Source of the DNA: Hallella colorans
GTDB lineage: Bacteria > Bacteroidota > Bacteroidia > Bacteroidales > Bacteroidaceae
DNA length: 64,000 nt
Direction: 5' to 3'
Assembly: GCF_003096815.1 (NCBI RefSeq)
Contig: NZ_QENY01000005.1
Location: forward strand, 1-64,000
The notes under the pieces were generated by a model, which saw only the letters and a list, made by a program, of their open reading frames with translations, was not told where the DNA came from and made no database searches. The position numbers and the translations under genes are program-made. Of this stretch, positions 3,550 to 59,547 are shown one piece after another (position 1 is the first letter of the stretch; each line of letters opens with the position of its first letter).

Positions 3550-3659
3550 ATTGATACCTAAAGCTGTGGCGTTTAGGCCTTTTTTATGCCGTGATTGAGA
3601 CTTAATCGTGGTGCCAATAGAACCTAAAGGCATCCCCTTTAAGGCCTAAAGGCAAGGCG
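3550..3659 (+). repeat. 22-bp tandem array A, five degenerate units
   Basis: Five contiguous 22-bp units begin at 3550, 3572, 3594, 3616 and 3638. They share a pattern rather than an identical sequence: A/T-TTA or a near match at positions 1-4, usually YTAAW around 9-13, a GC-rich triplet at 14-16, and G/C-rich ends such as GCG. Units 3-5 contain the variant arm CCTAAAGG and its near complement CCTTTAAGG across a unit junction. The same period and unit count recur at 12852, 50040 and 59210. Confidence 0.8.
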
Positions 3660-3732
3660 AGTTTGAAAACTGATTTGAAGAAATGTTTCTTTTATCACTG
3701 TAAAGTGTTGTTTTTCTGTTATATGCGGAAAA

Positions 3733-3753
3733 CTCAAATGCTTGGCGTATTTG
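3733..3753 (+). repeat. Dispersed 21-bp motif, copy 1
   Basis: The segment CTCAAATGCTTGGC + G + TATTTG matches 20 of 21 positions with 49895-49915. Both copies lie within about 150 bp of a 22-bp-period array. A weaker relative is near 12660. Function is unknown. Confidence 0.55.
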
Positions 3754-4043
3754 CCATCAAGAAGTAAATTGCACGGAAATACGCGAAGCATGAAAGGGCT
3801 TTTGTCAATTTTTTTTAGTTTCTTCTATCTGACTGCTTGCTAAATATCAATTGTAATTCCGCGCTTGATGCTTGACCGCTAATCCTAATTAGCAGTGCAA
3901 AACAAAATAGGGTTAGAAGATGCGAAAAAAACAGAAATATCCAATATTATTCCTTAATTTTACACTGACTTTTTTTCTTTATATGTAAAAACGTGAAGCG
4001 TCTATCATAAATTTTGTTTTTTTATTATAAAAAAACATATCGC

Positions 4044-4577
4044 ATGAAAAGACTATTTGTAGCATTCATTTGCATAGTTGCTTGTTGCATGTCAACAAAC
4101 GCTAAGATCAAGACAGATTTTGGAACCTTTGCGTTCGGAGCCACGGCCAATTATGGAACAAGTGGCACTTACAACCATGGTGGCGCCGGTTTGAAATAGC
4201 AAAAGTTTTTTGGTGATGAATTTCGGGGCAGCATCTTCGTCGACTATTTCTTCAAACAAAACAACGCCAGCTTTATTGAGTTTGGCACAGACTTCAACTA
4301 TGTGTTCGCATTGACGCCTAAGATGGGAGTTTATCCCATTTTGGGTTTGGGGTATTCCATCATGAAGTTGAACAATGTGATAGAGAAGCCCGCTGGTGTC
4401 GACATTCTACCTGATGACTATTCGGACGACTCTGAAGGCAATCTCAATTTTGATCTCGGCGTGGGATATGAATATTATTTCACTCCAACACTAAAGGGTT
4501 TTGCCGAGGCAAAATACCGATACGTTAAAAACTACGACCGGACGCTGTTACAAGTAGGAGTGGCCTACGTTTGGTAG
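4044..4577 (+). pseudogene. Outer-membrane beta-barrel protein interrupted by an amber codon
   Basis: One reading frame runs from ATG 4044 (MKRLFVAFICIVACC..., a signal peptide ending near NA-K) to a C-terminal VGVAYVW, the aromatic end typical of outer-membrane barrels. It is interrupted only by TAG at 4197-4199. Residues on both sides stay in the same frame (NYGTSGTYNHGGAGLK, stop, QKFFGDEFRGSIFVDYFF), so this is a nonsense substitution and not a frameshift. The restored length would be about 177 residues, with alternating strands of the small porin-like family (domain often called OMP_b-brl). Without suppression the product is a 51-residue fragment. A sequencing error is possible. Confidence 0.8.
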
Positions 4578-4747
4578 TCAACAAATGGACCATTAACCAA
4601 TCTAACATATAAGAGAAGATCACTATTCGCCATCATTGCCGCCGTATGCGCGACGATAACCACCGACCATGATCTCTGTAGGCAAGGTGGGGCGTTGGCG
4701 TTGTTGCTTCACAATAAACGGGTAGATGTTGCGTTGTATAGACAGTT

Positions 4748-5977
4748 ATGCAATGGACCGATAAAATCAGGCGTGTCAATATTCTGCTCGTTATGGCGGC
4801 AATCACGATTGCCGTGGGGTCATTGTTGGTGTCTCATTATCTGACGCGCGACCTGCGAGAACAAGAGCAGCGCAAGATGGAGGTGTGGGCCGAGGCCATG
4901 CGTACGCTAAGCAATGCCGACGAGAATACCGACTTGAACTTGGTGCTCAAGGTGCTCAACGACAACAATTACATACCGGTGGTGGTGCTCGACGCCAATG
5001 GGCGCGCCACCGAGTTTCGCAACATTGAGCTGACGGCCGATAGCTATCAGGACAGCCTTAGGCAGGCTGAAAAAATAGGCAGGCAGCTGCTCATGCGCCA
5101 TCAGAACATTCGCATCAAACTGTCAGGCGCCTCCAGCCGTCACGACGAGGTACGAGCGAACGATTTTATCGATGTGTGTTACGACGAGTCGCTCATTTTG
5201 AAACGGCTCTCTATCTATCCTTTCGCTCAAATGGGCGTGGTGCTTATCTTTGTCGCGGTGACTCTCTTCGCGCTCTTGTCGTCTAAGCGTGCTGAACAAA
5301 ACAAGGTGTGGGTGGGTCTTTCCAAAGAGACGGCCCACCAGTTGGGGACGCCGATATCGAGCTTGATGGCATGGACGGACGTGCTGCGCGAGACCTATCC
5401 AGAGGACCCGCTTATACCTGAGATGAGTAAGGACGTGAAGCGCTTGGAGCTTATCGCTGACCGCTTCTCGAAGATAGGCGCCAAACCTGAACCGGTGCCC
5501 ACCAGCCTGCAAGAGGTGGTGGAGCGCGTGGTGGACTATATGAACAGACGCACCTCGCATCGGGTCACTATATCAACAGTTTTTCCCCAGCATCGGGTCA
5601 TGGTCAAATTGAACAGCTCTCTCTTTGAGTGGGTTATCGAAAATCTGTGCAAAAACGCCGTGGATGCCATGGGGGGTGAGAACGGCACCATCACGCTCCG
5701 CGTTTTTGAGCGTGGCGACAAGGCTGTCATAGAGGTGAGCGACACCGGTCGCGGCATCAAGAAAAAAGACGTGCGCAATGTGTTCAAACCTGGATTTACC
5801 ACCAAACGCAGAGGATGGGGGTTGGGATTGTCGTTGGCCAAACGTATCGTGGAGGAGTATCACGATGGCCGTATATGGGTGAAAAACTCCGAGGTGGGGC
5901 GTGGCACTACTTTTCGCGTGGAGTTGCCGCTCATGGATAACAAGGGCCGCGATGGCGCAATGGCTCGTAAAAATTAG
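4748..5977 (+). CDS. Orphan sensor histidine kinase
   Basis: The 409-residue inner-membrane kinase has one transmembrane helix at about residues 11-30, a periplasmic sensor of about 125 residues, a second helix at about 157-177, then the kinase core. The H-box is KETAHQLGTP with His197 as the expected phospho-acceptor. The N-box is NLCKNAVDAM, and the nucleotide-binding G boxes are DTGRGI and GWGLGLSLAKRI. No HAMP domain is evident. No response regulator is next to it, so its partner must be encoded elsewhere. The periplasmic domain has no motif I recognise, so the signal is unknown. Confidence 0.9.
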   Translation: MQWTDKIRRVNILLVMAAITIAVGSLLVSHYLTRDLREQEQRKMEVWAEAMRTLSNADENTDLNLVLKVLNDNNYIPVVVLDANGRATEFRNIELTADSYQDSLRQAEKIGRQLLMRHQNIRIKLSGASSRHDEVRANDFIDVCYDESLILKRLSIYPFAQMGVVLIFVAVTLFALLSSKRAEQNKVWVGLSKETAHQLGTPISSLMAWTDVLRETYPEDPLIPEMSKDVKRLELIADRFSKIGAKPEPVPTSLQEVVERVVDYMNRRTSHRVTISTVFPQHRVMVKLNSSLFEWVIENLCKNAVDAMGGENGTITLRVFERGDKAVIEVSDTGRGIKKKDVRNVFKPGFTTKRRGWGLGLSLAKRIVEEYHDGRIWVKNSEVGRGTTFRVELPLMDNKGRDGAMARKN

Positions 5978-5997
5978 TTTGTCGCGGGCGTCATGGC

Positions 5998-6873
5998 TTA
6001 CGCTGGTTGCTTTCTCAATATAATGAGGATGACCGCCGTGAGTATTAGCACGATGCCTGAGGCCAATCGCCATGTGAAAATTTCGCCAAAGACGAACGTG
6101 CTGATTACAACGGCCGTGACGGGTTCGAGCGCGCCAAGGATGGACGTGGGGGTGCTGCCAATGAGTTGGATGGACACATTGATAAAATATAGTGACAGCA
6201 ATGTGGGCAACACGGCCAATTGTATCACGCAGAGCCATTGTTTAGGCGTATTGAGTGTTTGTAGTGGGTCGCCCGCGAAAATCATATATCCGATGATGGT
6301 CAGCCATCCAAACGCAATGATCCAAAAGGTGTATTTCACGACCGACATCTCTGTTTTGAACTGGTGAACATACACGATGTAGAGGGCGTAAAACAAAGAG
6401 GAGGCTAAAACTAATATCACGCCAGTGATGTTGAGTGGCTCGCCGCCATCGCCACGATATAACAATCCTATACCCGTGATGGCCAACACCAACGCAAAAG
6501 TGGTGATCCATGTGACGCGCTCGTGATAGAACACCACCATGAGCATGGCCGTGATGATGGGATAGGAAAACAAAATGGTAGACGCTACACCTGCGTTCAT
6601 GAAGTGGAAGCTCATGAAAAGCGTTGCCGACGACAAGCCGAAGAGTACCCCTAAGATGGCAAACTTGATGGCATGCCCCCGCCTAATCTTGAAGTTTTCT
6701 TTTTTCAACAGCATCCATGCGGCAAAAAGTAGCATCGTGATGCCGTAACGATAAAATAACACATTGCCCGACGTGATATGGTCAGCATAGAGCGGTAGCG
6801 CGCCTAATGGGTTGGTACCATAAAAAACAGCAGCAAGAACACCTGCGATAAATCCTTTAACTCGTGAGCTCAT
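5998..6873 (-). CDS. EamA/DMT-family transporter
   Basis: This inner-membrane protein of about 291 residues has ten predicted helices in two EamA repeats. The first begins FIAGVLAAVFYGTNPLGALPLY, and the second contains GVILVLASSLFYALYIV and the ALEPVTAVVISTFVFGE signature. The drug/metabolite transporter superfamily exports varied small solutes, and the substrate cannot be inferred. I chose the ATG at 6873 (MSSRVKGF) because it gives a normal N-terminus. An in-frame ATG at 6918 would add 15 unusual residues but lies close to the -7 box. It converges on the histidine kinase, with 20 bp between them. Confidence 0.82.
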   Translation of the reverse strand: MSSRVKGFIAGVLAAVFYGTNPLGALPLYADHITSGNVLFYRYGITMLLFAAWMLLKKENFKIRRGHAIKFAILGVLFGLSSATLFMSFHFMNAGVASTILFSYPIITAMLMVVFYHERVTWITTFALVLAITGIGLLYRGDGGEPLNITGVILVLASSLFYALYIVYVHQFKTEMSVVKYTFWIIAFGWLTIIGYMIFAGDPLQTLNTPKQWLCVIQLAVLPTLLSLYFINVSIQLIGSTPTSILGALEPVTAVVISTFVFGEIFTWRLASGIVLILTAVILIILRKQPA

Positions 6874-6946
6874 TTTTATTGGCCCGCACTCTACACAATG
6901 TGCATAGTGTACAGGCATTTAATGTCATCATTTATTATTCGGGGTG

Positions 6947-6954
6947 CAAAGGTA
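6947..6954 (-). promoter_or_regulatory. -7 promoter box for the DMT transporter
   Basis: Read on the minus strand the site is TACCTTTG followed by C. A weak TTGG element lies 19 bp upstream. The start of transcription would fall near 6940, ahead of both candidate start codons. Confidence 0.55.
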
Positions 6955-7321
6955 TAATTAAAAAGCATAATGACCAATGCTGTTGGCAATATTTTTGGGG
7001 CGCTAAGCCTATTTGATGATTTGGAACAATACGAGAAAGATACTATAATTATCTTTTGTTGTTTTTTTTCTTAATTATCCGATATGATACGATAACATTT
7101 TTTATATCTATTCTGAGAAGGCATATGTAAACTTGGCCATATAGCAAGTCAAGCTGCTTGGACAATTTGGTACTTGTTAGTTCAAGGTAAAATCTCGCAA
7201 AGTGACAACACTAATTGACAAACTCCATCATAATTCACATTAAGCGACGTAATGCTATGCTTTTTTGTTTTTTATCATTACATTTGCCAAATCATCTCAA
7301 TGATGTTACACATTCGCTTTC
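6955..7321. other. AT-rich gene-free region
   Basis: About 370 bp separate the divergent DMT transporter and the orphan gene at 7322. I see no gene, strong hairpin or repeat array. The high A+T content continues into the orphan gene. Confidence 0.5.
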
Positions 7322-7756
7322 TTGAGACACCATAATGTATTTGAGAGCGTAAAAGCAGGCAAGAAAGTTACGAATAAGGACGTAATAAAAATGTGGAGAT
7401 ACATAGAAACTATAATCGGAAAATCGCCTGTTATGGCAGCTATGGCAGCGTCTAAGAAAGGTAATCAAAGTAGTTCTCTGACAATCCAAACAGATGATAT
7501 AATCGATATTCGTTCCATGACGGTTGAACAATTGCAGGGTGTTGTGCCAATCCTTATGCTTGCAAAAAGCGTCCAAGCTGTGGAACCTGTGCGTGAACTA
7601 TCTTATTTTAGTCCTAAAGATATAGAACCTTTGCTATATGACAAACTCAAATCTGCAAAGAAATTGTTAGATAGAGCAAAGCGACTTACAGTAACAAAAA
7701 GAGATGTTGAGAAAATAAACTTTATCCTATTATCTGTAGATAGAATTTTAAAATAG
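7322..7756 (+). CDS. Hypothetical protein, AT-rich orphan
   Basis: I do not recognise this protein. The frame opens at TTG 7322 (144 residues). The first in-frame ATG is at 7391, giving 121 residues beginning MWRYIETIIGK, and this is probably the better start. The product is mostly helical, basic at its C-terminus (KLKSAKKLLDRAKRL), and has no signal peptide, membrane helix or metal-binding motif. Base composition is visibly more AT-rich than the neighbouring genes, and the upstream gap is AT-rich too, which suggests acquisition by transfer or a relic of a larger gene. It lies just ahead of the DUF177 promoter. Confidence 0.5.
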   Translation: MRHHNVFESVKAGKKVTNKDVIKMWRYIETIIGKSPVMAAMAASKKGNQSSSLTIQTDDIIDIRSMTVEQLQGVVPILMLAKSVQAVEPVRELSYFSPKDIEPLLYDKLKSAKKLLDRAKRLTVTKRDVEKINFILLSVDRILK

Positions 7757-7846
7757 CCTTTGGCATACTATTCTTAAAGGAGTATGAATAATATTTTATT
7801 ATCATTATTTTTTGCGATTAGATAGTTATTTATCAGAAAAAAATCG

Positions 7847-7854
7847 TAACTTTG
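7847..7854 (+). promoter_or_regulatory. -7 promoter box of the DUF177-rpmF-fabH operon
   Basis: TAACTTTG followed by C matches the Bacteroidetes -7 consensus and lies 17 bp upstream of the chosen start at 7872. The -33 element is weak. It rules out the longer frame beginning at 7812, which would start upstream of transcription. Confidence 0.7.
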
Positions 7855-7871
7855 CAGCCCAAAGTGTGGAG

Positions 7872-8399
7872 ATGTCTTATTTAGAGCAGTTTAAAATAGA
7901 TCTGAAACGGTTGGCTGAGGGAGACAATGTTCTCGAGTACGACCTGGATGATACCTACTTTGAGGCCATAGGTGCTCCCGTGGTGCAAAGAGGAAAACTG
8001 CGCTGCACGCTTGACATTCATTGTGTCGGGTCATTATTTGACATTAATTTTCACACAAAAGGCTCGGTCGTAATACCGTGTGACATCTGCTTGGACGACA
8101 TGGAACAAGTGGTTGACACTCGCGATCATCTCACGGCCAAGCTTGGCGAAGGCAGCTCTGACGATGACAACCTTGTCTTTATAGCCGAGAACGAAGGAAT
8201 ACTCGACGTGGCATGGTACATCTACGAGTTCATAGAGCTCAGCATCCCACTCAGGCACGTGCATGCACCTGGAAAATGCAACCCTGCCATGATGAAAGTT
8301 TTAGAAGAACATTCGGCTGCCCGAAGCGGCGTTGGTGATGGTGATAAGGCTGTGGACTCTCGATGGGAAGCATTAAGAAAAATAAAAATTACAGAATAA
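7872..8399 (+). CDS. DUF177 (YceD-family) protein
   Basis: The 175-residue protein belongs to the DUF177/YceD family. Members are nearly always encoded just before rpmF, and some have been linked to 23S rRNA maturation. Typical features are the VIPCDICLDDMEQVV segment near the middle and a C-terminal EFIELSIPLRHVH stretch followed by C-N-P. The start is the ATG at 7872 (MSYLEQFKIDLKRL), because the promoter lies at 7847-7854. rpmF follows 21 bp downstream. The family assignment rests on both motif and gene order. The rRNA role is knowledge of the family, not shown here. Confidence 0.85.
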   Translation: MSYLEQFKIDLKRLAEGDNVLEYDLDDTYFEAIGAPVVQRGKLRCTLDIHCVGSLFDINFHTKGSVVIPCDICLDDMEQVVDTRDHLTAKLGEGSSDDDNLVFIAENEGILDVAWYIYEFIELSIPLRHVHAPGKCNPAMMKVLEEHSAARSGVGDGDKAVDSRWEALRKIKITE

Positions 8400-8420
8400 A
8401 AGTTTAAACATTAAAGTATT

Positions 8421-9625: not shown

Positions 9626-9642
9626 GTAAATTAAACTATAAG

Positions 9643-12541: not shown

Positions 12542-13315
12542 GCGTGATATGCCTTTGCTATTCGTTTGGATGCGTGTTGACGTTCGTGGCTTGATATTCC
12601 AGTTCTTTATTGTTGAGTTGTTGACGATTTTTCTTTAGTCTGTTTGCTCGTATGGCAACACTTGGCGGATTTGAGAAAAATACGTTGAAAAATCACGACA
12701 AAACCCTTCTGCTCCTTGCGCTATTTGCAAAATCTAAGTTGATGGCTCGAAAATAATCTAAAATTGCGAGTTTTTTGTAACGCCCTAATCATAACCTTGT
12801 TATGTTTTTCTTGCGTTGTTGTCGCCATCATAGTTTTCAAAATGTTTTGCGTTTAAGGCTTATTGACGTGTCGTTGGATACCTAATTGCAGTGCGATAAA
12901 GGTTTAAACGTTGAGCGTATAGGCCCTAAAGGGAGCGCGTTTAATACTTATTCGTGACAGCTCGAAGTTTCTGCACGTTGAAATATCATAATTTTTGCGA
13001 TTTATTTTCATGCGAATGGGCCAAAACAAGTTTATTCCTTCTCTATAATGATGAATAAACAAGATTGTTTTTTACGACTGTTTTTTTTACATTTTGGTTG
13101 CTTGTGCGTGTGCTTCTCAAAACTTGCTATAGGTTCGATCGCTAAACTTTCCTTGCGTCTGCTTTTCTTGTTTGTGGCGTGTGTCGTATTGCTATGCGAA
13201 GTGCGCTCACTACGTGGGCGCGGCAAAATGTGTCAATGGGTGTGTTGTGGCGTTGTGGCTATAACCCTTTCGGTTCATTGGTCGTACCCCAATCGTTGGC
13301 TATGCCACCTTTCTT
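12542..13315. other. Gene-free convergent region, 774 bp
   Basis: The space separates the plus-strand lipoprotein and the minus-strand mlaF. It holds a weak copy of the 21-bp motif near 12660 and the 22-bp-period array at 12852-12961. A frame at 13048-13449 is cysteine- and leucine-rich, overlaps mlaF, and looks spurious. Confidence 0.65.
12852..12961 (+). repeat. 22-bp tandem array B, five degenerate units
   Basis: Units begin at 12852, 12874, 12896, 12918 and 12940. They keep the family pattern: a T/A-rich start such as TTTAA, TTGGA or TATAG, CTTA/CCTAA around positions 8-12, and ends such as TCG or GCG. Sequence identity between units is low, but the period is exact and the count is again five. 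Confidence 0.78.
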
Positions 13316-18592: not shown

Positions 18593-18593
18593 T

Positions 18594-19838: not shown

Positions 19839-19892
19839 CGTTTCTTATGGGTATCCTTGGTGGCTTGTGGTATGACGCATCTATCTGATATG

Positions 19893-22118
19893 ATGAACAA
19901 AGACTATTTAATAGAGAAGTTAAAACTGTTTTTTGGCTTTGATAATTTCAAAGGCGATCAAAAATCCATCATAAAAAATTTGATGGATGGCGACGACTTG
20001 TTTGTGCTGATGCCTACGGGTGGTGGCAAGAGTTTGTGCTATCAGTTGCCCTCTCTGCTCATGGAAGGCACAGCTATAGTGATATCGCCCTTGATCGCAC
20101 TGATGAAAAATCAGGTAGACGTTGTCAATGGTTTGACCGAGCAAGATGGTGTGGCGCATTTCATGAACTCTTCGCTTAACAAGGCCGCCGTGGCACAAGT
20201 GGTGAAAGATGTGCATAGTGGGAAAACCAAATTGCTATACGTGGCCCCAGAATCGCTTAACAAGTTGGACAACTTGGATTTCTTCGTGTCGTTCAAAATT
20301 TCTTTCTATGCTATAGACGAGGCACATTGTATTTCAGAGTGGGGACATGATTTCAGGCCTGAATACCGCAATATACGCCCTACAATAGAAAAAATTGCCA
20401 CACTTAGAAATGAAAGGCGAGCGCCCATTATCGCACTTACTGCCACGGCTACCGATAAGGTGCGCATGGACATTAAGAAAAGCTTGGGTATTTTGAATGC
20501 CAAGGATTTTAAAAGCTCGTTCAACCGACCAAACCTATATTATGAGGTAAGGCAGAAGAATAGCGAGGAAGACGCGGATAGCCAGATAATCCGTTTCCTA
20601 AAGCAATGTGAGGGCAAGAGTGGCATTATCTATTGCTTGTCGCGCAAAAAGGTGGAGGAGCTATCTAAGAAATTACAGATAAATGGGTTTAGAGCGGCTC
20701 CATATCATGCAGGACTCGATACCGAGGTTCGCACGCAGACGCAGGACGATTTCTTGCGCGAGGATATAGATGTGATAGTCGCAACTATCGCTTTTGGCAT
20801 GGGAATTGACAAACCGGATGTGCGATTTGTCATCCATTATGACATCCCCAAAAGTCTTGAGGGTTATTACCAAGAGACGGGTAGGGCTGGCAGAGATGGC
20901 GGAGAGGGGCGTTGTATAGCGTTCTACTCGCCCAAAGACTTGAAAAAATTGGAGAAATTCACTGATAATAAAGGTGAGGCAGAAAAAGAGATAGGGCGCC
21001 AGTTGCTTGAGGAAACTAAGGCTTACGCTGAAACTTCGGTATGTCGACGCAAATTCTTGCTGCACTATTTTGGAGAGGAATATACCAAGGATAATTGTGC
21101 AAACTGCGATAATTGTACGCACCCACAAAAGTCTATCGATGCCCAAGATGCCTTGCTGGTGGTGTTACGTGCCATTAAAGCGGTGAAACAACACTTTGAC
21201 CAAGCGTATATTATCGATTTCGTTAGAGGTCGTGCCACAGATAATATCGTGCGCCATGAGCATGACGAATTGGCTGAATTTGGGTCGGGAATGGAGATCA
21301 ATGAGCGTGAGCCATCTATTTGGAACCCAGTGATCAGACAGGCCATGATAGCGCATTATATTTACAAAGATGTGGAAAATTATGGCTTTTTGACATTGAC
21401 ACCAGAAGGACTTGGATACATCAAAAAACCGAAACCGTTTCATGTAGTGCTTGATAGACAGTTTGATGAAACGGAAGATGCCTCAGGTGGTAACTCCAGC
21501 GCACTTGATGACAAACTCTACAAGCTGTTGAGAGGGTTGCGAAAAGCTGTTGCCCGTAAGCACAATCTTCCACCATATGTCATATTCCAAGATATATCGA
21601 TAACGCTCATGGCCACTACTTATCCCGTGACCATGGACGAACTGCTTCAAATTCAAGGCGTAGGGCAAGGTAAAGCCAAAAAGTTTGGAAAAGAATTTAT
21701 AGACTTGATCAAACGCTATTGTGAAGAGAACGATATTCAGCGCACGGACATGATGCGTGTGATTAGTCTGCCAAATAAATCGCAAAAGAAACTAAAAATA
21801 ATAGAACTGATAGACAAGCGTATTCCATTGGATGAAATAGCCGCCGATCAAGGCTACGAGTTTGACGAATTGTTGGACGAGATTGAGTCTATCGTAAACA
21901 GTGGGATGAAAGTTAATATCAGTTATTACGTAGACGATGACGGGGTGGTTGACCCTGACGAGATAGCCGATATCTACGAGTATTTTCGTAAAAGCGAGAC
22001 GGACGATATTGATGAAGCCATCGACGAGGCTGATATATATGACGACGAAGATGGCTTGACGGCTGAACAAAAGGCACGTTTGGTGCTCATCAAATTTTTG
22101 TCGGAAGAAGGAAATTAA
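19893..22118 (+). CDS. recQ: ATP-dependent DNA helicase RecQ
   Basis: RecQ unwinds DNA 3' to 5' in recombination and repair. The protein has Walker A MPTGGGKS, the DEAH box followed by CISEWGHDFRPEY, motif VI ETGRAGRDG, the RQC zinc cysteines (CRRKFLLHYF, then CANCDNC), and an HRDC domain at about residues 530-615. A further C-terminal part of about 130 residues includes a helix-turn-helix-like LDEIAADQGYEFDELLDEIE segment and a very acidic tail. I start at ATG 19893 (MNKDYLIEKL). ATG 19890 or TTG 19857 would lengthen it slightly. Confidence 0.95.
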   Translation: MNKDYLIEKLKLFFGFDNFKGDQKSIIKNLMDGDDLFVLMPTGGGKSLCYQLPSLLMEGTAIVISPLIALMKNQVDVVNGLTEQDGVAHFMNSSLNKAAVAQVVKDVHSGKTKLLYVAPESLNKLDNLDFFVSFKISFYAIDEAHCISEWGHDFRPEYRNIRPTIEKIATLRNERRAPIIALTATATDKVRMDIKKSLGILNAKDFKSSFNRPNLYYEVRQKNSEEDADSQIIRFLKQCEGKSGIIYCLSRKKVEELSKKLQINGFRAAPYHAGLDTEVRTQTQDDFLREDIDVIVATIAFGMGIDKPDVRFVIHYDIPKSLEGYYQETGRAGRDGGEGRCIAFYSPKDLKKLEKFTDNKGEAEKEIGRQLLEETKAYAETSVCRRKFLLHYFGEEYTKDNCANCDNCTHPQKSIDAQDALLVVLRAIKAVKQHFDQAYIIDFVRGRATDNIVRHEHDELAEFGSGMEINEREPSIWNPVIRQAMIAHYIYKDVENYGFLTLTPEGLGYIKKPKPFHVVLDRQFDETEDASGGNSSALDDKLYKLLRGLRKAVARKHNLPPYVIFQDISITLMATTYPVTMDELLQIQGVGQGKAKKFGKEFIDLIKRYCEENDIQRTDMMRVISLPNKSQKKLKIIELIDKRIPLDEIAADQGYEFDELLDEIESIVNSGMKVNISYYVDDDGVVDPDEIADIYEYFRKSETDDIDEAIDEADIYDDEDGLTAEQKARLVLIKFLSEEGN

Positions 22119-32152: not shown

Positions 32153-32844
32153 ATTGAGGTGTGCAAGCTATTCGGGCCAAGTATGATAATGATATGACAA
32201 CTTTTCGTTTACATACTAATCCCATCGTGATTAGATACTAATCCTATCTCGTTTAGATACTAATCCCATCGTGATTAGATACTAATCGCATCTCGTTTAG
32301 ATACTAATCGCATCTCGTTTAGATACTAATCCCATCGTGATTAGATATTAATCGCATGGCGTTTAGATACTAACCACGTCGTAATTAGATACTAATCCCA
32401 AAGACTAACAGACTTTGATATGCTGGTTTTCGGTTTTGACATGCTGCGTTTAACCCCGAAAGGCAAAATCTTTAGCAAGAAAGGCGTTTCTGCTGATTGT
32501 TTCCTACTTCTATCTTGACACTTGCTCTGTTACGTTTCTGCATGCCATATCTGTGCAAACTCATGCTAAACACTGATTTTGGCAGGACTGTTTTTCTTGA
32601 ATTTATTTACAAATTTTTAAATAATGACAATTTAGTTTCAAGACGTTGGTAATCAGATAGAAATAAAATGTGTGGCTTGTACTCTTCCTAAAAATTTATA
32701 AGGGGATATAGTCGCTTTTGATAATGTTTTTTGTTAGCGCTAAATCGTGTGGTTCTTGGTGCTCGCATGAATGTATGAATGACAGATTTGTGGAGCGTAA
32801 TAAGTAATGATTTTTCATGTGGAAATAAAAAAAAGTTGCAAATA
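32153..32844. other. Gene-free region before the tRNA pair
   Basis: About 690 bp contain the nine-unit 22-bp array at 32208-32405 and an AT-rich stretch. I see no open reading frame of credible composition and no second array. Confidence 0.6.
32208..32405 (+). repeat. 22-bp tandem array C, nine near-identical units
   Basis: Nine contiguous units start every 22 bp from 32208. Most read A/T + TTAGATACTAATC followed by CCATCGTG or GCATCTCG. CTAATC in one unit and GATTAG across the junction to the next form an inverted repeat with a seven-base spacer. The last unit drifts. There are no spacers between units, so it is not a CRISPR. It is the most homogeneous member of the family also found at 3550, 12852, 50040 and 59210. 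Confidence 0.92.
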
Positions 32845-34679: not shown

Positions 34680-36158
34680 ATGACAGAAGATTTAGAGAAC
34701 AAGATTCAGGAGCAAAGATCAGAGCAGTATCAAGACAACGAGAGTGGCCGTGAAGGCTATGAGCGCAATTCAGATTATCAGAACGACTATCGTGAAGAAA
34801 ACTCACGGTCGCAACGGCCGCGCATCCATACTCAGCGGGCCTATAGCAGTGACCGTAACAACAATATGCAAGATCGGGGTGGGTTCCGTCCCGAGGGCTT
34901 CGGCGCCAATCTACAATCGGGAAGTGGCGAGCAGGGCCGCCCATCTTACAACAATTATCAGCCGCGTGGTGGCTATCAACCTCGCCAAGGAGGTTATCAA
35001 TCGCGTGGTTACCAGCAGCGTGAAGGCGGTTATCAGCAGCGTGATGGCGGCTATCAGCAGCGTCCCAATAATTATAACCGTCCGCGTTACAACAATAATG
35101 ATGGCGGCTATCAACAGCGTGAGGGCTACCAACCACGCGAAGGCTACCAGCCACGCACCGGTGGTTACCGTCCGCGCCAAGGTGGGTACGACCGCCAACA
35201 AGGTGGTTATCAACCACGCCAAAGTGGCTACGGTCGTCAGCAAGGTGGCTATCAGCCTCGCCCGGGAGGCTATGGCCGTCAGCAGGGTGGCTACCAGCCA
35301 CGCCAAGGTGGATACAATCGTTATCAGGGCGGTTATGATAGGCGTCCGGGTGGGTACGTGCCTCGTCAGGGTTATGACCCAGACGCAAAGTATAGCATGA
35401 AGAAACGCATAGAGTACAAGGAGGAACATATAGATCCAAACGAGCCGATTAGGCTAAACAGATACTTGGCTAACGCTGGCGTTTGCTCTCGGCGAGAAGC
35501 CGACGAGTTCATACAGGCTGGCGTGGTGGCGGTCAATGGTGAGATCGTTACAGAATTGGGCACGAAAGTGTTGCGTAGCGACGAGGTAAAATTCCGTGAC
35601 CAACTGGTGACTTTGGAGAAAAAAGTGTATGTGTTGCTCAACAAACCCAAAGACTATGTCACCACGAGTGACGACCCTCAACAGCGCAAGACGGTGATGG
35701 ACTTGGTGAAAGGGGCTTGCCCTGAGCGCATATACCCCGTGGGAAGATTGGACAGAAACACCACGGGAGTGCTTCTTTTGACGAACGATGGCGATTTGGC
35801 CAGCAAACTCACACACCCTAAATTCTTGAAGAAAAAAGTTTACCACGTGTTCCTCGATAAAAATGTGCCCGTAGAAGACCTGCAGAAAATAGCAGAGGGT
35901 GTCGAATTAGAAGACGGCGAGGTGCATGCTGACGCCATAGAATATGTTGACGAGTGCGAAAAGGCGCAGGTTGGCATTGAGATACACAGCGGTAAAAACC
36001 GTATTGTACGCCGTATCTTCGAGGCGTTGGGCTACCGTGTGATCAGACTTGATCGTGTACAGTTTGCCGGGCTGACCAAAAAGAATGTTCGTAGGGGCGA
36101 CTGGCGGTTCTTGACCGAACAGGAAGTAGACATGTTGAGAAGTGGAATGTACGAATAA
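34680..36158 (+). CDS. RluB-type pseudouridine synthase with Gly/Gln/Tyr/Arg-rich N-terminus
   Basis: The 492-residue protein has two parts. Residues about 75-240 are low complexity, built from many short repeats such as GGYQPRQ, GGYQQRD and GGYGRQQ. From about residue 255 there is an S4 RNA-binding domain (RLNRYLANAGVCSRREAD) and an RluB/RsuA-type synthase domain with the catalytic Asp in VGRLDRNTTG (about residue 357). The enzyme family converts uridine to pseudouridine in rRNA. Which site is modified is not known. The repeat part probably binds RNA or promotes self-association. Repetition in the DNA (34960-35360) also opens long false frames on both strands. Confidence 0.92.
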   Translation: MTEDLENKIQEQRSEQYQDNESGREGYERNSDYQNDYREENSRSQRPRIHTQRAYSSDRNNNMQDRGGFRPEGFGANLQSGSGEQGRPSYNNYQPRGGYQPRQGGYQSRGYQQREGGYQQRDGGYQQRPNNYNRPRYNNNDGGYQQREGYQPREGYQPRTGGYRPRQGGYDRQQGGYQPRQSGYGRQQGGYQPRPGGYGRQQGGYQPRQGGYNRYQGGYDRRPGGYVPRQGYDPDAKYSMKKRIEYKEEHIDPNEPIRLNRYLANAGVCSRREADEFIQAGVVAVNGEIVTELGTKVLRSDEVKFRDQLVTLEKKVYVLLNKPKDYVTTSDDPQQRKTVMDLVKGACPERIYPVGRLDRNTTGVLLLTNDGDLASKLTHPKFLKKKVYHVFLDKNVPVEDLQKIAEGVELEDGEVHADAIEYVDECEKAQVGIEIHSGKNRIVRRIFEALGYRVIRLDRVQFAGLTKKNVRRGDWRFLTEQEVDMLRSGMYE

Positions 36159-49666: not shown

Positions 49667-49894
49667 GAAAATTTAAATTTATAATGATTGGAAATCCCTA
49701 CCATAGCCAGTAGGCCCATAGAGAGGTATTGCAAAGATAAATAAATTATTAACACAAACGACTAAAATATTAAATAATTATTTGTGTGCCATTCTAAATT
49801 ACCATCTAACGGTATTTTGCCCGATGAGTATTAATTGTGCCAAGCCTTTCAAGACGTCTTGGAAAATAGTATTTGAAAATACCTGACAAAAGCT

Positions 49895-49915
49895 CTCAAA
49901 TGCTTGGCTTATTTG
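49895..49915 (+). repeat. Dispersed 21-bp motif, copy 2
   Basis: CTCAAATGCTTGGC + T + TATTTG differs from the copy at 3733-3753 at one position. It lies 125 bp upstream of a 22-bp-period array, whereas copy 1 lies 74 bp downstream of one. Confidence 0.55.
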
Positions 49916-50039
49916 AAAAATAAAATGTATTTGTCCAAAATAAGCTGAAAATAGAGCACATTTTCTATGTGCTTGTAAATGAAGATGTTGTCGTGATAGC
50001 TGCAAAAAGAGATGAGAAACCGTTGTGAGAACTGTTGCG

Positions 50040-50149
50040 TTTAATGCTCTTTCGTGTCGCGATTAATACTTGATCGCATTGTAATTAGGTCTTTCTCGCA
50101 CCATGTTTAGAGCCTAAAGGGGTTACGATTAAGCATTAATCGTCTCGCC
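50040..50149 (+). repeat. 22-bp tandem array D, five degenerate units
   Basis: Units begin at 50040, 50062, 50084, 50106 and 50128. Each begins TTTAA, ATTAA, ATTAG or TTTAG. Most carry a TCG or AGG triplet around positions 13-15 and end in CG, TG, TA or CC. The period is exact although identity is low. The count is again five. Confidence 0.8.
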
Positions 50150-54014: not shown

Positions 54015-54017
54015 ACC

Positions 54018-55430
54018 ATGAGTATGAAAAAGATATTTATTATATGTGTTTCGGCACTTGCAATAACCCTTACTTCGTGTGAGGATTGGTTTGATATTTC
54101 TGCTAAATCAGAGTTGAAGGCAGACGATTTGCTCAATAATGAGCAGGGATATAGAGATGCTCTGATAGGCTGTTATGCTTCAATGAAAAGTAAAAACCTT
54201 TATGGAGCACAACTCACCATGACCTATTTAGACTGTCTTTCCCAATATTATTCTACGGCCAACAACGCCCAAAATAGCTTTTATTACGCCGCCAAATACG
54301 ACTATGCCAACACTAAAGAAGAAAAAAGAAAGGACGAGATATGGAAAGATCAATATAATGTCATAGCCAATGTGAACAGTCTCGTCAATAGAATAGATAA
54401 GTCAAAAGACGTCTTTTCTACGGGAGTGTACGCGCTTTTAAAGGGCGAGGCATTAGGAATAAGGGCTTTTTTGCATTTTGATTTGCTACGTATGTTTGCC
54501 CCTTCACCATCCATGACAGATGGCTTGCAGGCAAAAGCGATACCTTATGTGGACCAATTCACCAACGCTCTGTACGCCCAACTTTCTACGGAACAGGTTT
54601 TAGACAGAGTGGTGAAAGATCTCGTCGAGGCTCGTGAAATGCTTAAGGATGTTGACCCATATGGTCCAAAGCACGCCAATTATGATTTAAAAGCGTTGGA
54701 GGGAGTGTGGAAAGGACGTGAGTTTCGTATGAACTACTATGCCGTCACCGCATTGATGGCAAGGGTGCTGCTATATAGAGGGCATCCCGAAGACAAGGAA
54801 AAGGCATTTCAATATGCCAAGGAGGTAATAGATTCGGGCCTTTTCCCTTTGATAACCAGTAGTGAAATTAAAAGCTCTGAAGATAATGGTTTTGTTAGGG
54901 AAAATATCTTTTCGTTGGAGCATACCGGCTTGAAAGATGATATCGTGGATAATTATTTTGTCGTGGATGAGCGCGCGTACAATTTTCTCGCGCTTAATAA
55001 ACGCACACTTAAAAGAGTCTTCCCATCCACGTTGGACATGGATTACAGGCGTCAATGGTGGCTGGGCACCACTGGCAATAACTTTACAATTGTCAAATAC
55101 AACAGCTCCAAGCGCGTACCTTTAATCAAGGTTTCCGAGATGTATCTTATCGCCACCGAAACCGCACCCAATATAACGACGGCCAATAAGTACTACAATG
55201 AGTTGTTGTATCATCGCGGATTGCCAAGCGAAGCGTTAACGCAAGCCAATATGAACAAGCATTTATTGGCAGAATATGCCAAAGAGTTCATAGGGGAAGG
55301 CCAGCTTTTTTATGCTTACAAAAGATTGAATAACAAGATAGTTCCAATACTGCAAAGAGGCATAGAGAAACCAGAAGCAGTCTACGTGATACCTTTGCCA
55401 AAGGAAAATACTTATTTCATACAACAATGA
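54018..55430 (+). CDS. SusD/RagB-family substrate-binding lipoprotein
   Basis: The 470-residue lipoprotein has its lipidation site at Cys21 (TLTSCEDWFDISAKSELKAD-type start). It shows the helical TPR-like scaffold of SusD: GYRDALIGCYASMKS, LLKGEALGIRAFLHFDLLRMFA, and a C-terminal segment with EFIGEGQLFYAYKRLN. It caps the SusC barrel on the cell surface and binds the substrate. It begins 3 bp after the SusC stop codon. Confidence 0.95.
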   Translation: MSMKKIFIICVSALAITLTSCEDWFDISAKSELKADDLLNNEQGYRDALIGCYASMKSKNLYGAQLTMTYLDCLSQYYSTANNAQNSFYYAAKYDYANTKEEKRKDEIWKDQYNVIANVNSLVNRIDKSKDVFSTGVYALLKGEALGIRAFLHFDLLRMFAPSPSMTDGLQAKAIPYVDQFTNALYAQLSTEQVLDRVVKDLVEAREMLKDVDPYGPKHANYDLKALEGVWKGREFRMNYYAVTALMARVLLYRGHPEDKEKAFQYAKEVIDSGLFPLITSSEIKSSEDNGFVRENIFSLEHTGLKDDIVDNYFVVDERAYNFLALNKRTLKRVFPSTLDMDYRRQWWLGTTGNNFTIVKYNSSKRVPLIKVSEMYLIATETAPNITTANKYYNELLYHRGLPSEALTQANMNKHLLAEYAKEFIGEGQLFYAYKRLNNKIVPILQRGIEKPEAVYVIPLPKENTYFIQQ

Positions 55431-55467
55431 TTATTCCATTATTATACCCTCTAAACTATCGCACTTT

Positions 55468-56166
55468 ATGAAAAGAATAATCTTTAGCGGTTTATATATA
55501 CTAACATTTTTGTTACTATTCGCCGCATGTCAGGAGAACGAGCAGATGGAATTCGGTCAAAAGGCAAGTGCTTATTTCAGCTCATTGACCGCGGCCGATA
55601 GTATGGCTTATTCTTTCGCGTCGGGAAAATTGAAGCAAGACACGGTGCTCATACCCGTCAAAATCATTGGTGAGTCTACCAGTTACGACCGAAAAATAGC
55701 TTTTAATGTAGATCCGTCGTCTACGGCGCAAGCGGGTCTTCAATACGAAGCTTTGCATGGTATGGTTACGCTGCCCGCGGGAAAAGTGGAAACTTATATC
55801 AAGATCGTAGTCTTTGACAAAGGCTTGGACAAGTCGGACGTGTCTTTGACACTGAACATTGTACCCAACGAAAGTTTCAATCTTGGCTACGGTGACAGAC
55901 TTCGCGCCAAACTCATCATCACCAATCAGCTGGTCAAGCCAACCTATTGGGACATGCCTTTGTCTTTCTATTATGGCGAATACTCCAAAGCCAAGCACCG
56001 CATTTGCATCATGTTGCAAGGTGAGGATTTCCCACCCACATGGGATCGCACCAAGGTACAGACCTATATGTCATACGGCAGAATGGTGTACAACTATCTA
56101 CTGAAGACCCCCGTGTGGGATGAAGATACAAAAACTTGGATTACGGCAGACTGGGCTCCACTCTAA
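55468..56166 (+). CDS. DUF4843-type lipoprotein
   Basis: The 232-residue lipoprotein has lipidation at Cys21 (LLLFAACQENEQM) and a beta-rich body with the segments VLIPVKIIGESTSYDRKIAF and TYIKIVVFDKG, typical of DUF4843. Such proteins are found after SusD in operons of the RagAB type. The C-terminal part (YYGEYSKAKHRICIML) has an alternating pattern. It is presumably surface-exposed and helps to bind the substrate. The family name is from memory of pattern and context. Confidence 0.75.
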   Translation: MKRIIFSGLYILTFLLLFAACQENEQMEFGQKASAYFSSLTAADSMAYSFASGKLKQDTVLIPVKIIGESTSYDRKIAFNVDPSSTAQAGLQYEALHGMVTLPAGKVETYIKIVVFDKGLDKSDVSLTLNIVPNESFNLGYGDRLRAKLIITNQLVKPTYWDMPLSFYYGEYSKAKHRICIMLQGEDFPPTWDRTKVQTYMSYGRMVYNYLLKTPVWDEDTKTWITADWAPL

Positions 56167-56179
56167 AAAATGAACAGAA

Positions 56180-57697
56180 ATGAAAAGAATTATTATATTA
56201 TTTTCGATCTTTGCGCTCGTGTTGACCTCATGTGTACACGACGATACGAACGAGAACTTCATTCAACTCAATGAGGCAGCCATCACCGGCATAGCCGATG
56301 AGTACAACAATGTCTATGTGGACGATTACCTAAAGATATCGCCTGTTATCAGCACGACTAAGAATGACCTCTCCCAATTTAGCTACTTTTGGATTACGTA
56401 CGACACGAACACCTTGTATAATGCGGACACACTGTCGCATCAAAAGGACCTCAATGTCAAGATTGGGATGATTCCCGGCAAACACACGGTGGTCTTCAAG
56501 GCCGTCGATAACAAAACCGGCATATTCTATAAAAAGCAATTTGTTATCAATGTGGTTAACGAGTTTACAAACGGTATCATGGTGCTCTATGAGAAAAACG
56601 GCAGTGCCGAACTTGGTTTTTGGAGTCAGGAGCGTGGCAAGCTCATCTCCGATATCTATGGCAAACTGAACGAAGGCGGTACCATTGGGCAGCGTCCACA
56701 AAGGGTTTACTTCAACAAATACAGTGACGAGAAAGCCAATGAAGTCTTGATTTTGTGCCAAGACCAAAAGGGTGGCGTGTTCTTGGATGCTACAACCATG
56801 CAAAAAACGCGCGACTATAAGGATTTCTTTTTTGCCGCGCCAGATGAGATTAAACCACAAGCCTATTACAAAGCTAACATGCGCGAATATCTCATTGACA
56901 ACGGATTGGCTTACGATAGAGCCACCAACAGCATGATACCCAACCCCACTGTCAAGCCAAATCTCAGTGTCGCGGGCAAAACTTATGAGATAGCAGGCAA
57001 CGCTGATTTCGGCGATCCGGAGGTTGGACACGATGATTACCCCGCGCGCATCATCCTATACGATAACAAAAACATGTGTTTTTACTCCGTTTATAACATC
57101 GCTTCGGCTTTTATGGAGTTGATACGTGGCTCTGAGGACGTGATTTACGAGCCAGGAGGCTTCTTCGATCCTAACAATGTTGGTATGACTTGCCTTTATG
57201 CCAACATCTCCGCGCGTAGTGCCACAGGCGCGAGAGAGTATATGGGGGTGTTCCAAACGCCACAAGGCAAGCGCCATTTATTGAGGATGGGCATAGGCTT
57301 TTGGGTTGAGAACGCCGAGCCCGACACCTACTTCAAAGATATGGGCAATGATGTCATCACTTCTGAAGGGATAGACGCAGCCACTACTTTTGCCTGTTCG
57401 CCCAAGGTTCCGGGTTATATGTTTTACGCCTCGGGCAATGCTTTGTACCTTTACAATGCGATCAACAACGCGGGGCAAAAGGTCTATGAGCTTCCAGTGG
57501 GGCAGAATATCAACCATATCGAGATAGACCGGAGTCATGGCTACTTGCTTGTGGCTTATCAAGACAAGGCCAAACAGACGGGCAAGGCCGGTTTTGTCAT
57601 GTTGGAGATAAGCACTGACGGTGGTTTAAAACTTGCCGTGAAGCACCAATTTGATGCTGTTGGAGATAAAATATTGGATTTTGAAAACAGGTATTAA
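56180..57697 (+). CDS. PKD-like family lipoprotein
   Basis: The 505-residue lipoprotein has lipidation at Cys18 (LVLTSCVHDDTNE). Its N-terminal part to about residue 130 looks like PKD/immunoglobulin-type beta sandwiches (SYFWITYDTNT, then GKHTVVFKAVDNKTG). The remainder resembles a beta-propeller with short repeats such as ILYDNKNMCFYSVYN and LYLYNAINNAGQKVYELP. Proteins of this build accompany SusCD pairs and DUF4843 genes. No catalytic motif is visible. Its stop lies 5 bp before the thioredoxin-like gene. Confidence 0.75.
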   Translation: MKRIIILFSIFALVLTSCVHDDTNENFIQLNEAAITGIADEYNNVYVDDYLKISPVISTTKNDLSQFSYFWITYDTNTLYNADTLSHQKDLNVKIGMIPGKHTVVFKAVDNKTGIFYKKQFVINVVNEFTNGIMVLYEKNGSAELGFWSQERGKLISDIYGKLNEGGTIGQRPQRVYFNKYSDEKANEVLILCQDQKGGVFLDATTMQKTRDYKDFFFAAPDEIKPQAYYKANMREYLIDNGLAYDRATNSMIPNPTVKPNLSVAGKTYEIAGNADFGDPEVGHDDYPARIILYDNKNMCFYSVYNIASAFMELIRGSEDVIYEPGGFFDPNNVGMTCLYANISARSATGAREYMGVFQTPQGKRHLLRMGIGFWVENAEPDTYFKDMGNDVITSEGIDAATTFACSPKVPGYMFYASGNALYLYNAINNAGQKVYELPVGQNINHIEIDRSHGYLLVAYQDKAKQTGKAGFVMLEISTDGGLKLAVKHQFDAVGDKILDFENRY

Positions 57698-57701
57698 ACA
57701 G

Positions 57702-58910
57702 ATGAGGCACAGACTATTGACGCTCCTGATGTTTGCCGTGTGCGGCTATATGGCACACGCCCAGCAGGTCTTGTTCCAACGCCTGACATGGCAAGAGGCC
57801 AAGGATAAAGCTCGCGCCGAGGGTAAAGGTATTTTTGTTGACGTCTATACCACATGGTGCGCGCCCTGCAAAAAAATGGCTAAACAGGTGTTCACGCAGC
57901 CTAAAGTGGGCGATTATATCAACAATAACTTCGTCGCCCTGAGCTTAGACGCAGAGAAAGAGGCCGCGCATGGTTTTTTCAAATTGTACAAGGCGTCCGC
58001 TTACCCCACCTATTTTTGGTTGGATGCTGACGGTAATCTTTATGACACACAGTCAGGGTTTTACCCCGCCGACGAGTTCATCAGTGTGTCCGAACAGGCT
58101 TTGCGCTCTAAGTTTTCGCGTCAATATGTCGCCGACCGCGCTAAGTGGGAGCGTGGGGAACGGTCATTAGATTTTGTCAGGCATTTCCTGTTTGATGTCG
58201 TGGCCAAGGTTTATCCAGACTCTGTGCGTCCGTATCTTAACAAATATCTTGGCGGATTGACCGAGCAAGAGATAGCCACCAAGGGGGTAGGCGAGTTACT
58301 CCAATGGTTCACCTATACCATCAGGGACGATAGCGTGTGGCTGGCATTGGCCAAGCACAACGATATTTACCAAAAACTTTTGGGCAATGACTTCGGCAAG
58401 AAAATGTACATGAACCTCGTGCGCGTGCCCATGATCAACAGCACGGAGGATGTTGTCGAGTTCAACAGAGGTCAATCAATCGTCGAGGTGACCGACTTCC
58501 CGAACAAGAAAATGTATAGTGACATTCTCACTATGGAGCGAACGTTGCGGCAAAAGGCCTATGCCCCCGCGCTCAAGAGAGCGCTGGCGATAGGATTGGC
58601 GCACGAAGGCCATTTCCCCAACGTGTACTCGGAGATGATATACTCGTTTATCCTTGCCGATTTTTTTGTTGACACCCATAAGCGCACTGCCGAGGAGGTA
58701 GCCGACATGCGCCAATTGGCCGACCGTGCCTTTCGCATGGCGCCCTCACAGTGCACGTTGCTTTACAAGGCGGCGGCGCGGGCACTCGGCAACGATTACC
58801 AAGCGGCCTATCGCCTGCTCGCCAACCTGCCTTTCTATGGAGAGCCAGCGCTCAGCTCGGCGGTATATGCCAAACTGAATTTGCGACGCATACACATAGA
58901 CGAAAAATAA
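57702..58910 (+). CDS. Thioredoxin-fold protein with long helical C-terminus
   Basis: The 402-residue exported protein has a signal peptide (MRHRLLTLLMFAVCGYMAHA), a thioredoxin fold with the redox pair Cys53/Cys56 in TTWCAPCKKM and a cis-Pro in SAYPTYFW, and a C-terminal helical region of about 240 residues. It probably acts in the periplasm as a disulphide reductase. Being last in the SusCD operon, it may serve the transported substrate or an imported enzyme. It starts at ATG 57702. Longer frames read into the previous gene. A terminator follows. Confidence 0.88.
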   Translation: MRHRLLTLLMFAVCGYMAHAQQVLFQRLTWQEAKDKARAEGKGIFVDVYTTWCAPCKKMAKQVFTQPKVGDYINNNFVALSLDAEKEAAHGFFKLYKASAYPTYFWLDADGNLYDTQSGFYPADEFISVSEQALRSKFSRQYVADRAKWERGERSLDFVRHFLFDVVAKVYPDSVRPYLNKYLGGLTEQEIATKGVGELLQWFTYTIRDDSVWLALAKHNDIYQKLLGNDFGKKMYMNLVRVPMINSTEDVVEFNRGQSIVEVTDFPNKKMYSDILTMERTLRQKAYAPALKRALAIGLAHEGHFPNVYSEMIYSFILADFFVDTHKRTAEEVADMRQLADRAFRMAPSQCTLLYKAAARALGNDYQAAYRLLANLPFYGEPALSSAVYAKLNLRRIHIDEK

Positions 58911-58993
58911 TTTTCAACGTGATTTAACGCCATGCCCTTATATCCCAATGGCACCCATCCAAACAATGTAAAGGGCGTGGCGCGTCTCGAGGG

Positions 58994-59036
58994 AAGCCCG
59001 AACCACACAATGGCTCATGTGTGGTTCGGGCTTTTA
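58994..59036 (+). terminator. Terminator of the susCD operon
   Basis: AAGCCCGAACCACACA at 58994-59009 pairs perfectly over sixteen bases with the segment at 59018-59033, followed by T residues. Confidence 0.93.
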
Positions 59037-59547
59037 AATGTCCTTGAAATAAACCGACAAAGGCCCATCAATCTCACGTAAATGTCCCAAAACAAGGCAA
59101 ATGTACCGAAAAACGGCAAAAAACAACGTTTTTGTAAGGCATGGATTGTCAGCGCATTATGAATGGCGGCCATGAGACCTTGGTGGCATAATGTTGAGAT
59201 CGGTTTGCGATTAGGCCTTAATCGCAAGGCGATTAAGCCTTATACGCAGTGCGTTAAAGGCTCATTCGCCTTGCGTTTAGCACTTGAAGGCGACCCCATT
59301 AGATACCAATCGCAAAACGGTGGCTATTTTTGAGGAAGGAAATGGTAGAGAAGTCATGCCATTTTCAAGATTTTTAGGTATGATGGTGGATAACGGAAGA
59401 ATTTATTATAGACCAATTATTTTTACATTGTGGACTTTTCTTGGTTGTTTTCGAGGTATGTTACAGTCTCGCCAGATGGCATGAAGTGTGTCATGGAGAC
59501 GAGCTGTCGGTTGATTTTAGAGTGCGTATTTGTTTTTCGGTCAATCG
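59037..59547. other. Gene-free region with 22-bp array E
   Basis: About 510 bp hold the array at 59210-59319 and nothing else that I recognise. The short frame at 59284-59484 overlaps the array and is not credible. Confidence 0.6.
59210..59319 (+). repeat. 22-bp tandem array E, five degenerate units
   Basis: Units begin at 59210, 59232, 59254, 59276 and 59298. Across the first junction CTTAATCG and CGATTAAG form perfect eight-base arms separated by CAAGG. Starts are ATTAG, ATTAA, TTAAA or TTTAG. Most units have CGC at 14-16 and end in GCG or ACG. The array is the cleanest of the five-unit set. Confidence 0.85.

Follow-up and report, generated by a model that had tools for sequence, protein, structure and literature searches.

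Arrays of 22-bp units in the window

The window analyzed here, a 64,000-nucleotide stretch of Hallella colorans (contig NZ_QENY01000005.1, positions 1 to 64,000), carries five intergenic tandem arrays of contiguous units of exactly 22 bp, with 5, 5, 9, 5, and 5 units, respectively (Table 1). The arrays lie where an initial annotation, made from the sequence alone, had placed them, and the column pattern that it described was recovered as well, with A/T-T-T-A at positions 1 to 4, a purine at 5, YTAAW at 9 to 13, and CGC at 14 to 16. The suggestion that the repeat is not protein coding was likewise supported. Overlooked at that stage were two dyad axes per unit, a near-fixed unit number, a one-sided conserved flank, and even spacing. 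When units were scored with a profile that left out their own array, each reached 6.0 to 22.7 bits. Single units overlapped in score with the top background sites outside the arrays, which reached 13.0 bits, but every one of the 26 top three-unit sums per strand in a scan of the window fell at the arrays.

Table 1. Arrays and conserved flanks in the window
Feature	Position	Strand	Basis or remark
Array 1, five 22-bp units	3550..3659	-	Unit profile, leave-one-array-out scoring
Conserved left flank of element 1 (approximate)	3655..3822	-	Centre-based profile
Conserved left flank of element 2 (approximate); TTGAAAA..CGACAAAA near outer end	12680..12847	+	Centre-based profile
Array 2, five 22-bp units	12852..12961	+	Unit profile, leave-one-array-out scoring
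Array 3, nine similar 22-bp units	32208..32405	. (orientation margin 14 bits)	Flank weak
Conserved left flank of element 4 (approximate)	49868..50035	+	Centre-based profile
Array 4, five 22-bp units	50040..50149	+	Unit profile, leave-one-array-out scoring
Conserved left flank of element 5 (approximate)	59038..59205	+	Centre-based profile
Array 5, five 22-bp units	59210..59319	+	Unit profile, leave-one-array-out scoring

A genome-wide family with a near-fixed unit number

We searched the genome that holds the window (G000, 2.94 Mb) with a model of the five arrays and obtained 176 matches at an E value of ≤1 (150 of 500 candidates scored); merging the 150 matches listed among these 176 gave 94 loci. 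When arrays were extended freely along the 22-bp phase, 88 of the 94 had exactly five units, five had six, and one had nine. The search model itself had five units and could favor five-unit arrays, but it does not force that number, since the same model drew arrays from two other Prevotella genomes, BIN10 and UBA1705, that often have four (15/29 and 6/8, respectively). We also read 647.8 kb of G000 in full, namely, the whole of contigs C5 and C3, 100 kb of C10, and 180 kb of C2. This sample held 41 arrays, each scoring at least 61 bits with a 114-position profile, and no site scored between 5 and 61 bits once sites less than 180 bp from a better-scoring site were left out. Nothing rose above 0 bits in twelve order-1 Markov shuffles of C5 and C10, read on one strand each. 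The proposed genome-wide family was thus borne out, with at least 94 loci in G000 and no comparable score in the shuffled sequence.

The 41 arrays were spread over all gap types (-+, 12; +-, 10; ++, 10; --, 9; crude calling of open reading frames [ORFs]), in agreement with the earlier statement that they are not tied to one gene layout. A depletion of divergent gaps, seen in an earlier count on 1.3-kb stretches, was not upheld (12/41 arrays). Common gene neighbors were sought around 14 arrays of another genome (G001) and the 94 G000 arrays, and the short flanks gave four weak matches, none of them convincing. One or two arrays used as BLAST queries found no match in plasmids and phages, which for a species-specific array is a weak test. 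Although the family is otherwise divergent, the elements of four loci (L062, L099, L137, and L138) were 83 to 96% alike across 431 bp, an instance of recent duplication; these and other near-duplicate or related loci (L090, L110, and L135) were excluded from the profiles and pair counts.

Even spacing along the chromosome

The 41 arrays delimited 37 intervals with a minimum of 6,992 bp and a median of 12,785 bp, and 31 of the 37 were below 16 kb. Under uniform placement, the exact probability that no interval falls below the observed minimum was 5.4e-10. None of 20,000 uniform draws and none of 20,000 random-gap draws reached this minimum, and the observed coefficient of variation was reached by one uniform draw and two random-gap draws. 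The longest interval (51.7 kb, C3) was low in GC (42.4%, versus 48.1% in a C10 control) and has ketoacyl synthases. The end of C5, from 111.0 to 155.7 kb, was without an array and holds the conjugation genes TraG, TraM, YWFCY, and PcfJ. These genes mark an array-free conjugative island at about 119 to 153 kb (L149 to L151), which we take to be CTnDOT-like; it also encodes a histidine kinase, a sigma-54 response regulator, and an EF-G-like product that probably serves in ribosomal protection.

Dyad-symmetric units beside a one-sided conserved flank

Each unit has two dyad axes, at positions 7 and 18, and the profile correlated with its own reverse complement (r = 0.96); the palindromes are a 13-bp ATTARGNCYTAAT and a 9-bp CGCNNNGCG. 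Across 82 loci, dyad partners varied independently of each other, with 1,675 Watson-Crick cells where independent columns would give 1,707 and with G-T cells (244) exceeding A-C cells (191) only slightly. Since the dyad partners do not covary, we regard the units as DNA sites read by two half-sites rather than as RNA stems.

Elements were oriented by likelihood before their flanks were profiled, and five loci with atypical flanks (L059, L084, L086, L097, and L101) were excluded. The left flank, from about -220 to -60 relative to the array center, carried 0.17 to 0.68 bits per base and had a sharp outer edge, whereas the right flank reached 0.26 bits at most. A symmetric pair of flanks with phased A/T proved to be an artifact of unoriented elements. 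The conserved flank contains TTGAAAA...TGACAAAA, a TGATNATCA-like motif, and an imperfect inverted repeat; of 37 arrays in other genomes, 6 have the exact TGATNATCA no more than 170 bp away, a raw count from which the probably coding L181 was excluded.

Covariation in the left inverted repeat was weak on fixed columns and moderate by local alignment. Its arms paired better with their own partners than with foreign ones (mean, 9.70 versus 8.25), the own partner ranking first in 8 of 77 cases. Near-perfect hairpins were present at L085, L114, and L122 (z = -8.5, -7.9, and -8.6, respectively; loci picked after viewing), followed by six T's at L114 and four at L122, with no T-run at L085; L066, L107, and L109 folded weakly (z = -1.39, -0.64, and -0.26, respectively, among eight folds chosen after viewing). 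The hairpins thus range from near-perfect to degenerate among copies, as if quasi-palindromes were occasionally corrected. A single long hairpin across the whole element was rejected, as arms from the same locus were no more alike than foreign arms. By inspection, G000 elements showed no terminal inverted repeats or target duplications (the edges of the elements in another genome, G012, are unsettled), and the arms at the outer ends of G000 elements paired no better than foreign ones (8.83 versus 8.77). TGACAAA-like letters were seen by inspection at both ends of G000 elements, in the same direction.

Constraint on single copies

Next, we compared G000 with G129, which differs at 4.5% of aligned bases (95.5% identity). 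The comparison covered 506 kb of G129, in which 24 G000 loci were matched and 21 were spanned; L089, L142, and the array at 12852 were partly covered, L089 being covered on C5 in another alignment. The array was present at the same place in all 21 spanned loci, with no empty site, and all 19 spanned five-unit arrays kept five units. Length changed only in the array at 32208, which lacks 66 bp, or three units, in G129 (nine to six), and at L112, which has one unit fewer (six to five). The idea that the repeat spreads by slippage was therefore not supported, given five units in 88/94 arrays and 19/19 unchanged.

Substitution rates by column were evaluated in 18 orthologous elements, the columns being ranked by their information in 59 other loci. 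Between the lowest- and the highest-information class, substitutions in the core fell from 10.7% to 5.6%, and those in the left flank fell from 13.1% to 1.9% (Fisher test, columns of ≥0.8 versus <0.5 bits; P = 0.0015 for the core and 1e-7 for the left flank). Columns conserved between loci thus change at roughly one-half to one-seventh of the rate of the others, which indicates that single copies are under selection and not dead, unless the mutation rate follows column information. The notion of selection, originally raised for the spacing, is supported for the letters and probably for the spacing too, with dyad-symmetric sites two helical turns apart; DNA binding is the best supported of the initial annotation's readings. 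Column 11 of the unit differed between the two genomes in 16 of 95 cells despite its good conservation between loci. The alignment broke at 12694, near the outer end of element 2, in a rearranged region; when 12694 to 13203 of the window was compared with contig C24 of G129, both G129 junctions had a short sequence in common by eye, as at a recombinase site.

The same design with other letters in other Prevotella

Among the records listed, the nearest named matches to nspC (carboxynorspermidine synthase) were Prevotella sp. UBA1705 and BIN10 at 91%, followed by P. veroralis, P. ihumii, and P. multiformis at 90%. Arrays with their own letters were profiled in five genomes. The G001 profile, GTAATcAGGCCCtgATTACA.T, had a dyad r of 0.93, with four units in 10/14 arrays; the corresponding values were 0.65 and four units in 5/6 for G012, 0.81 and four units in 6/8 for UBA1705, and 0.96 and five units in 17/21 for P. 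bivia (profile AAAAGgT.AtCTT), and the BIN10 profile had a dyad r of 0.89. The P. bivia, BIN10, and G012 arrays were merged or picked by hand among the matches listed. Among the arrays listed, P. bivia had at least 30 on a 1.98-Mb scaffold, with 29 intervals and a minimum of 12.3 kb (P = 0.003); BIN10 had 33 intervals with a minimum of 7.9 kb; and same-contig intervals in G012 were at least 6.6 kb. Of 204 candidates in G012, 40 were scored; the copies were 84 to 90% identical to one of their number, and this similarity indicates that amplification in G012 was recent.

A self-match scan at period 22 gave at least 38 of 66 matches in 19 of 80 nspC loci, most of which have a palindromic motif of their own by eye; L181 is probably coding and L178 is nonpalindromic. 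The scan was insensitive, the degenerate arrays of the window standing barely above background. At 45/66, period 22 was found in 8 loci, period 21 in 10, periods 28 and 35 in 3 each, period 18 in 2, and periods 16, 24, 27, 32, and 36 in 1 each, so that period 21, a coding period, was as common as 22, and 22 was the most frequent of the remaining periods. Several uncultured Prevotella have period-16/24 repeats immediately downstream of nspC (L231, 4736; L232, 4725; L248, 4716-4723). A search for tnaA in 299 genomes of the genus matched 39, none over the curated cut-off, and we hence call these genes tnaA-like; among 16 tnaA-like loci, period 22 reached 38/66 in 4 and any other period in 2 at most. 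In the window and at L177, L182, L183, L192, and L197, an array with differing letters lies about 80 to 550 bp downstream of the same fast-evolving gene, which has 26 to 34% identity and was found in 52 of the 80 loci.

Relation to described repeats

PINSR is a 188-bp intergenic repeat of P. intermedia, published in 2015 (PMC4755523), with 177 copies in strain OMA14 and 184 in strain 17, one of them downstream of tnaA (PMC4755523, section 3.4); it is without terminal inverted repeats, about three quarters of its places are common to both strains, and it is absent from most conjugative and mobilizable transposons (PMC4755523). Like PINSR, the window family is intergenic, shows no terminal inverted repeats by inspection, and is absent from one stretch with conjugation genes (C5, 111.0 to 155.7 kb); the difference is that PINSR was described, by PCR, as a one-clade 188-bp repeat, with letters unlike those of the window. 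In G100 (2.7 Mb, two contigs), four clear 22-bp units and one degenerate unit lie downstream of the tnaA-like gene, and query bases 29 to 216, a length of 188, are covered by each of the 40 copies scored among 287 first-look candidates. G100 probably belongs to P. intermedia or a close relative of it. G077 (two contigs) had no match to the G100 repeat. PINSR is probably another version of the 22-bp array element, as seen in G100. The initial claim of an undescribed system therefore needs qualification: the element was probably known in this one version, but the 22-bp period, dyad, unit number, spacing, and kinship with other clades go without mention in the parts of the PINSR account available to us (PMC4755523). 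Among the titles and abstracts listed by searches of open PubMed Central papers, none concerned evenly spaced 22-bp arrays in Prevotella.

BrickBuilt of Porphyromonas gingivalis resembles the family in having intergenic tandem short units between two nonrepetitive flanks, dispersed in a Bacteroidales genome. Its 23-nt units vary between 1 and 22.8 copies through expansion and contraction, and it has terminal inverted repeats like those of insertion sequence IS5, filled and empty sites, and 19 copies in ATCC 33277 (PMC4596501). From a miniature inverted-repeat transposable element (MITE) of this type, the window family differs in showing no terminal inverted repeats or target duplications and in its presence at every spanned locus of G129 (21/21). 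Repetitive extragenic palindromes and bacterial interspersed mosaic elements (REP/BIME) share with the arrays their extragenic palindromes, species-specific letters, and clusters; they often exceed 100 per genome, their dispersal is tied to a Y1-type (RAYT) transposase, and BIME-2 binds gyrase (PMC2817692). They differ in that no strict train of 22-bp units is described in the part of that account available to us and in that the palindromes of the window family lack complementary changes (82 loci). The Y1 transposase domain PF01797 was absent from G012, G129, G100, and G316, with one copy in G000 and two in G319; dispersal by RAYT is thus unsupported, with the domain missing from four of six genomes. 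The near-fixed unit number (88/94 with five) sets the family apart from a variable-number minisatellite, although the array at 32208 and L112 vary and BIN10 is more variable.

A few short sites on one helical face are also found in iteron origins, ParR/parC, and TubR centromeres. These differ in occurring once or a few times per replicon with the cognate gene adjoining.

Evenly spaced architectural sites as a possible explanation

The observed period, dyad symmetry, G000 unit number and spacing, per-copy constraint, species turnover, and absence from one conjugative island would be accounted for if the arrays were evenly spaced architectural sites bound by a putative dimeric protein. We infer the protein, its dimeric state, the wrapping, and the architectural role from these patterns, and we hold this reading tentatively, at somewhat under an even chance. 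In each array, a single dimeric DNA-binding protein would occupy four or five 22-bp sites with dyad symmetry; with sites two helical turns apart, the dimers would be aligned on one face and bound cooperatively, and together with the conserved flank they would probably bend or wrap the DNA. Copies mostly 7 to 16 kb apart in intergenic gaps could then serve as loop or supercoil-domain anchors or as docking points for a larger complex. They may arise by some dispersal step, settle at a minimum distance from one another, and be retained by weak purifying selection, newly acquired islands not yet having been supplied. The letters preferred by the protein would shift between species, so that the unit sequence turns over and the 22-bp period and four- to five-unit layout stay. 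More speculatively, and with rather doubtful prospects, the arrays might form a chromosome-wide ruler of evenly spaced multidimer sites whose letters co-evolve rapidly with their protein, a species-own code in a 22-bp grammar whose marks would set the settled chromosome apart from new DNA and delimit loop or supercoil domains of about 13 kb.

We know of few bacterial sequence elements with even spacing on the scale of loop or supercoil domains, and the chromosome architecture of Bacteroidota is poorly known. If the sites are architectural, removing them individually would make the domain question testable; if target immunity keeps them apart as transposons, nature would have left a striking record of how it acts. 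In both cases PINSR, so far described for a single clade, would stand as one form of a broader design.

Several results weigh against the architectural reading. Two further long intervals, of 29.7 and 21.9 kb, lie on C2, and BIN10 has arrays inside both (L345 and L347). The window's letter set left 276 of the 299 genus genomes silent at an E value of 1e-5 and had no match in P. veroralis, P. multiformis, or P. bivia. Unit number was looser in BIN10 (four units in 15 arrays, five in 9, three in 3, and two in 2; n = 29). Among the arrays listed, UBA1705 had pairs down to 5.8 kb apart, and the 38 of G100 had a minimum interval of 3.4 kb, which was not significant on an assumed length of 2.12 Mb (P = 0.095). 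No clear tie to the GC-skew strand was found (P = 0.058). Overall, five-unit arrays differed between G000 and G129 as much as other intergenic DNA (7.4% [154/2,088] versus 7.5%), and substitutions in the right flank of the 18 elements showed no trend with column information. Lastly, five BIN10 or UBA1705 arrays map to the fully read G000 contigs, two of them next to a G000 array and three away from any; six further arrays had a neighbor gene beside a G000 array, in a set biased to array-adjacent stretches. This mapping and the differing profiles indicate that places and letters turn over and that the period and, roughly, the unit number persist.

Alternative explanations

The same spacing would be expected of a nonautonomous, MITE-like element whose 22-bp sites bind a transposase and which spread until target immunity had filled the genome, the spacing being the exclusion distance; we consider this the main rival, possible but on the whole unlikely. 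Mu and Tn7 show target immunity, and their transposase sites are about 22 bp. Random sequential filling with an exclusion length r would give intervals of r to 2r, near the observed 7 to 16 kb (by reasoning, not by a fit), and the same-direction TGACAAA-like letters at both element ends also fit such an element. Target immunity accounts for the spacing equally well and for the recent amplification in G012, where listed intervals are at least 6.6 kb, better, but it does not account for the constraint on single old copies. The lack of empty sites at the 21 spanned loci speaks against it too, as do the lack of visible terminal inverted repeats and target duplications (G012 edges being unsettled), the dyad symmetry and internal position of the units, and the transposase search, in which Y1, the sole family sought, was absent from four of six genomes, including G012. 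The mobile and the architectural readings may both be true in turn, with spread first and use later.

A role as a transcription boundary, in which the left-flank inverted repeat would terminate transcription and the array would insulate transcription units from each other, seems improbable. The near-perfect hairpins at L085, L114, and L122, the T-runs at the latter two, and the better pairing of own arms point in this direction, but L085 has no T-run, three of eight folds are weak, and the gaps with arrays show no preferred orientation, divergent ones included. That the arrays are a functionless, decaying minisatellite left by slippage and dispersal is more improbable still: their overall divergence equals that of intergenic DNA and two of them change length, but the near-fixed unit number and even spacing do not fit a dead repeat, and the slower conserved columns contradict it unless the mutation rate tracks column information. 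Tandem hairpins of a noncoding RNA are scarcely credible. The unit consensus GCGATTA-ggcct-TAATCGC could pair, but the covariation test on 82 loci ruled this out, G-T pairs were hardly in excess, and at gathering thresholds Rfam matched only 5S rRNA and two tRNAs in the window, leaving the arrays without a match.

Other observations in the window

Repeats of 21/42 bp occur at 35007 to 35315, inside the ORF at 34680 to 36158. A helicase is encoded at 19857 to 22118; its best PADLOC score was to DpdF profiles, and we suspect it to be a RecQ-type housekeeping helicase.

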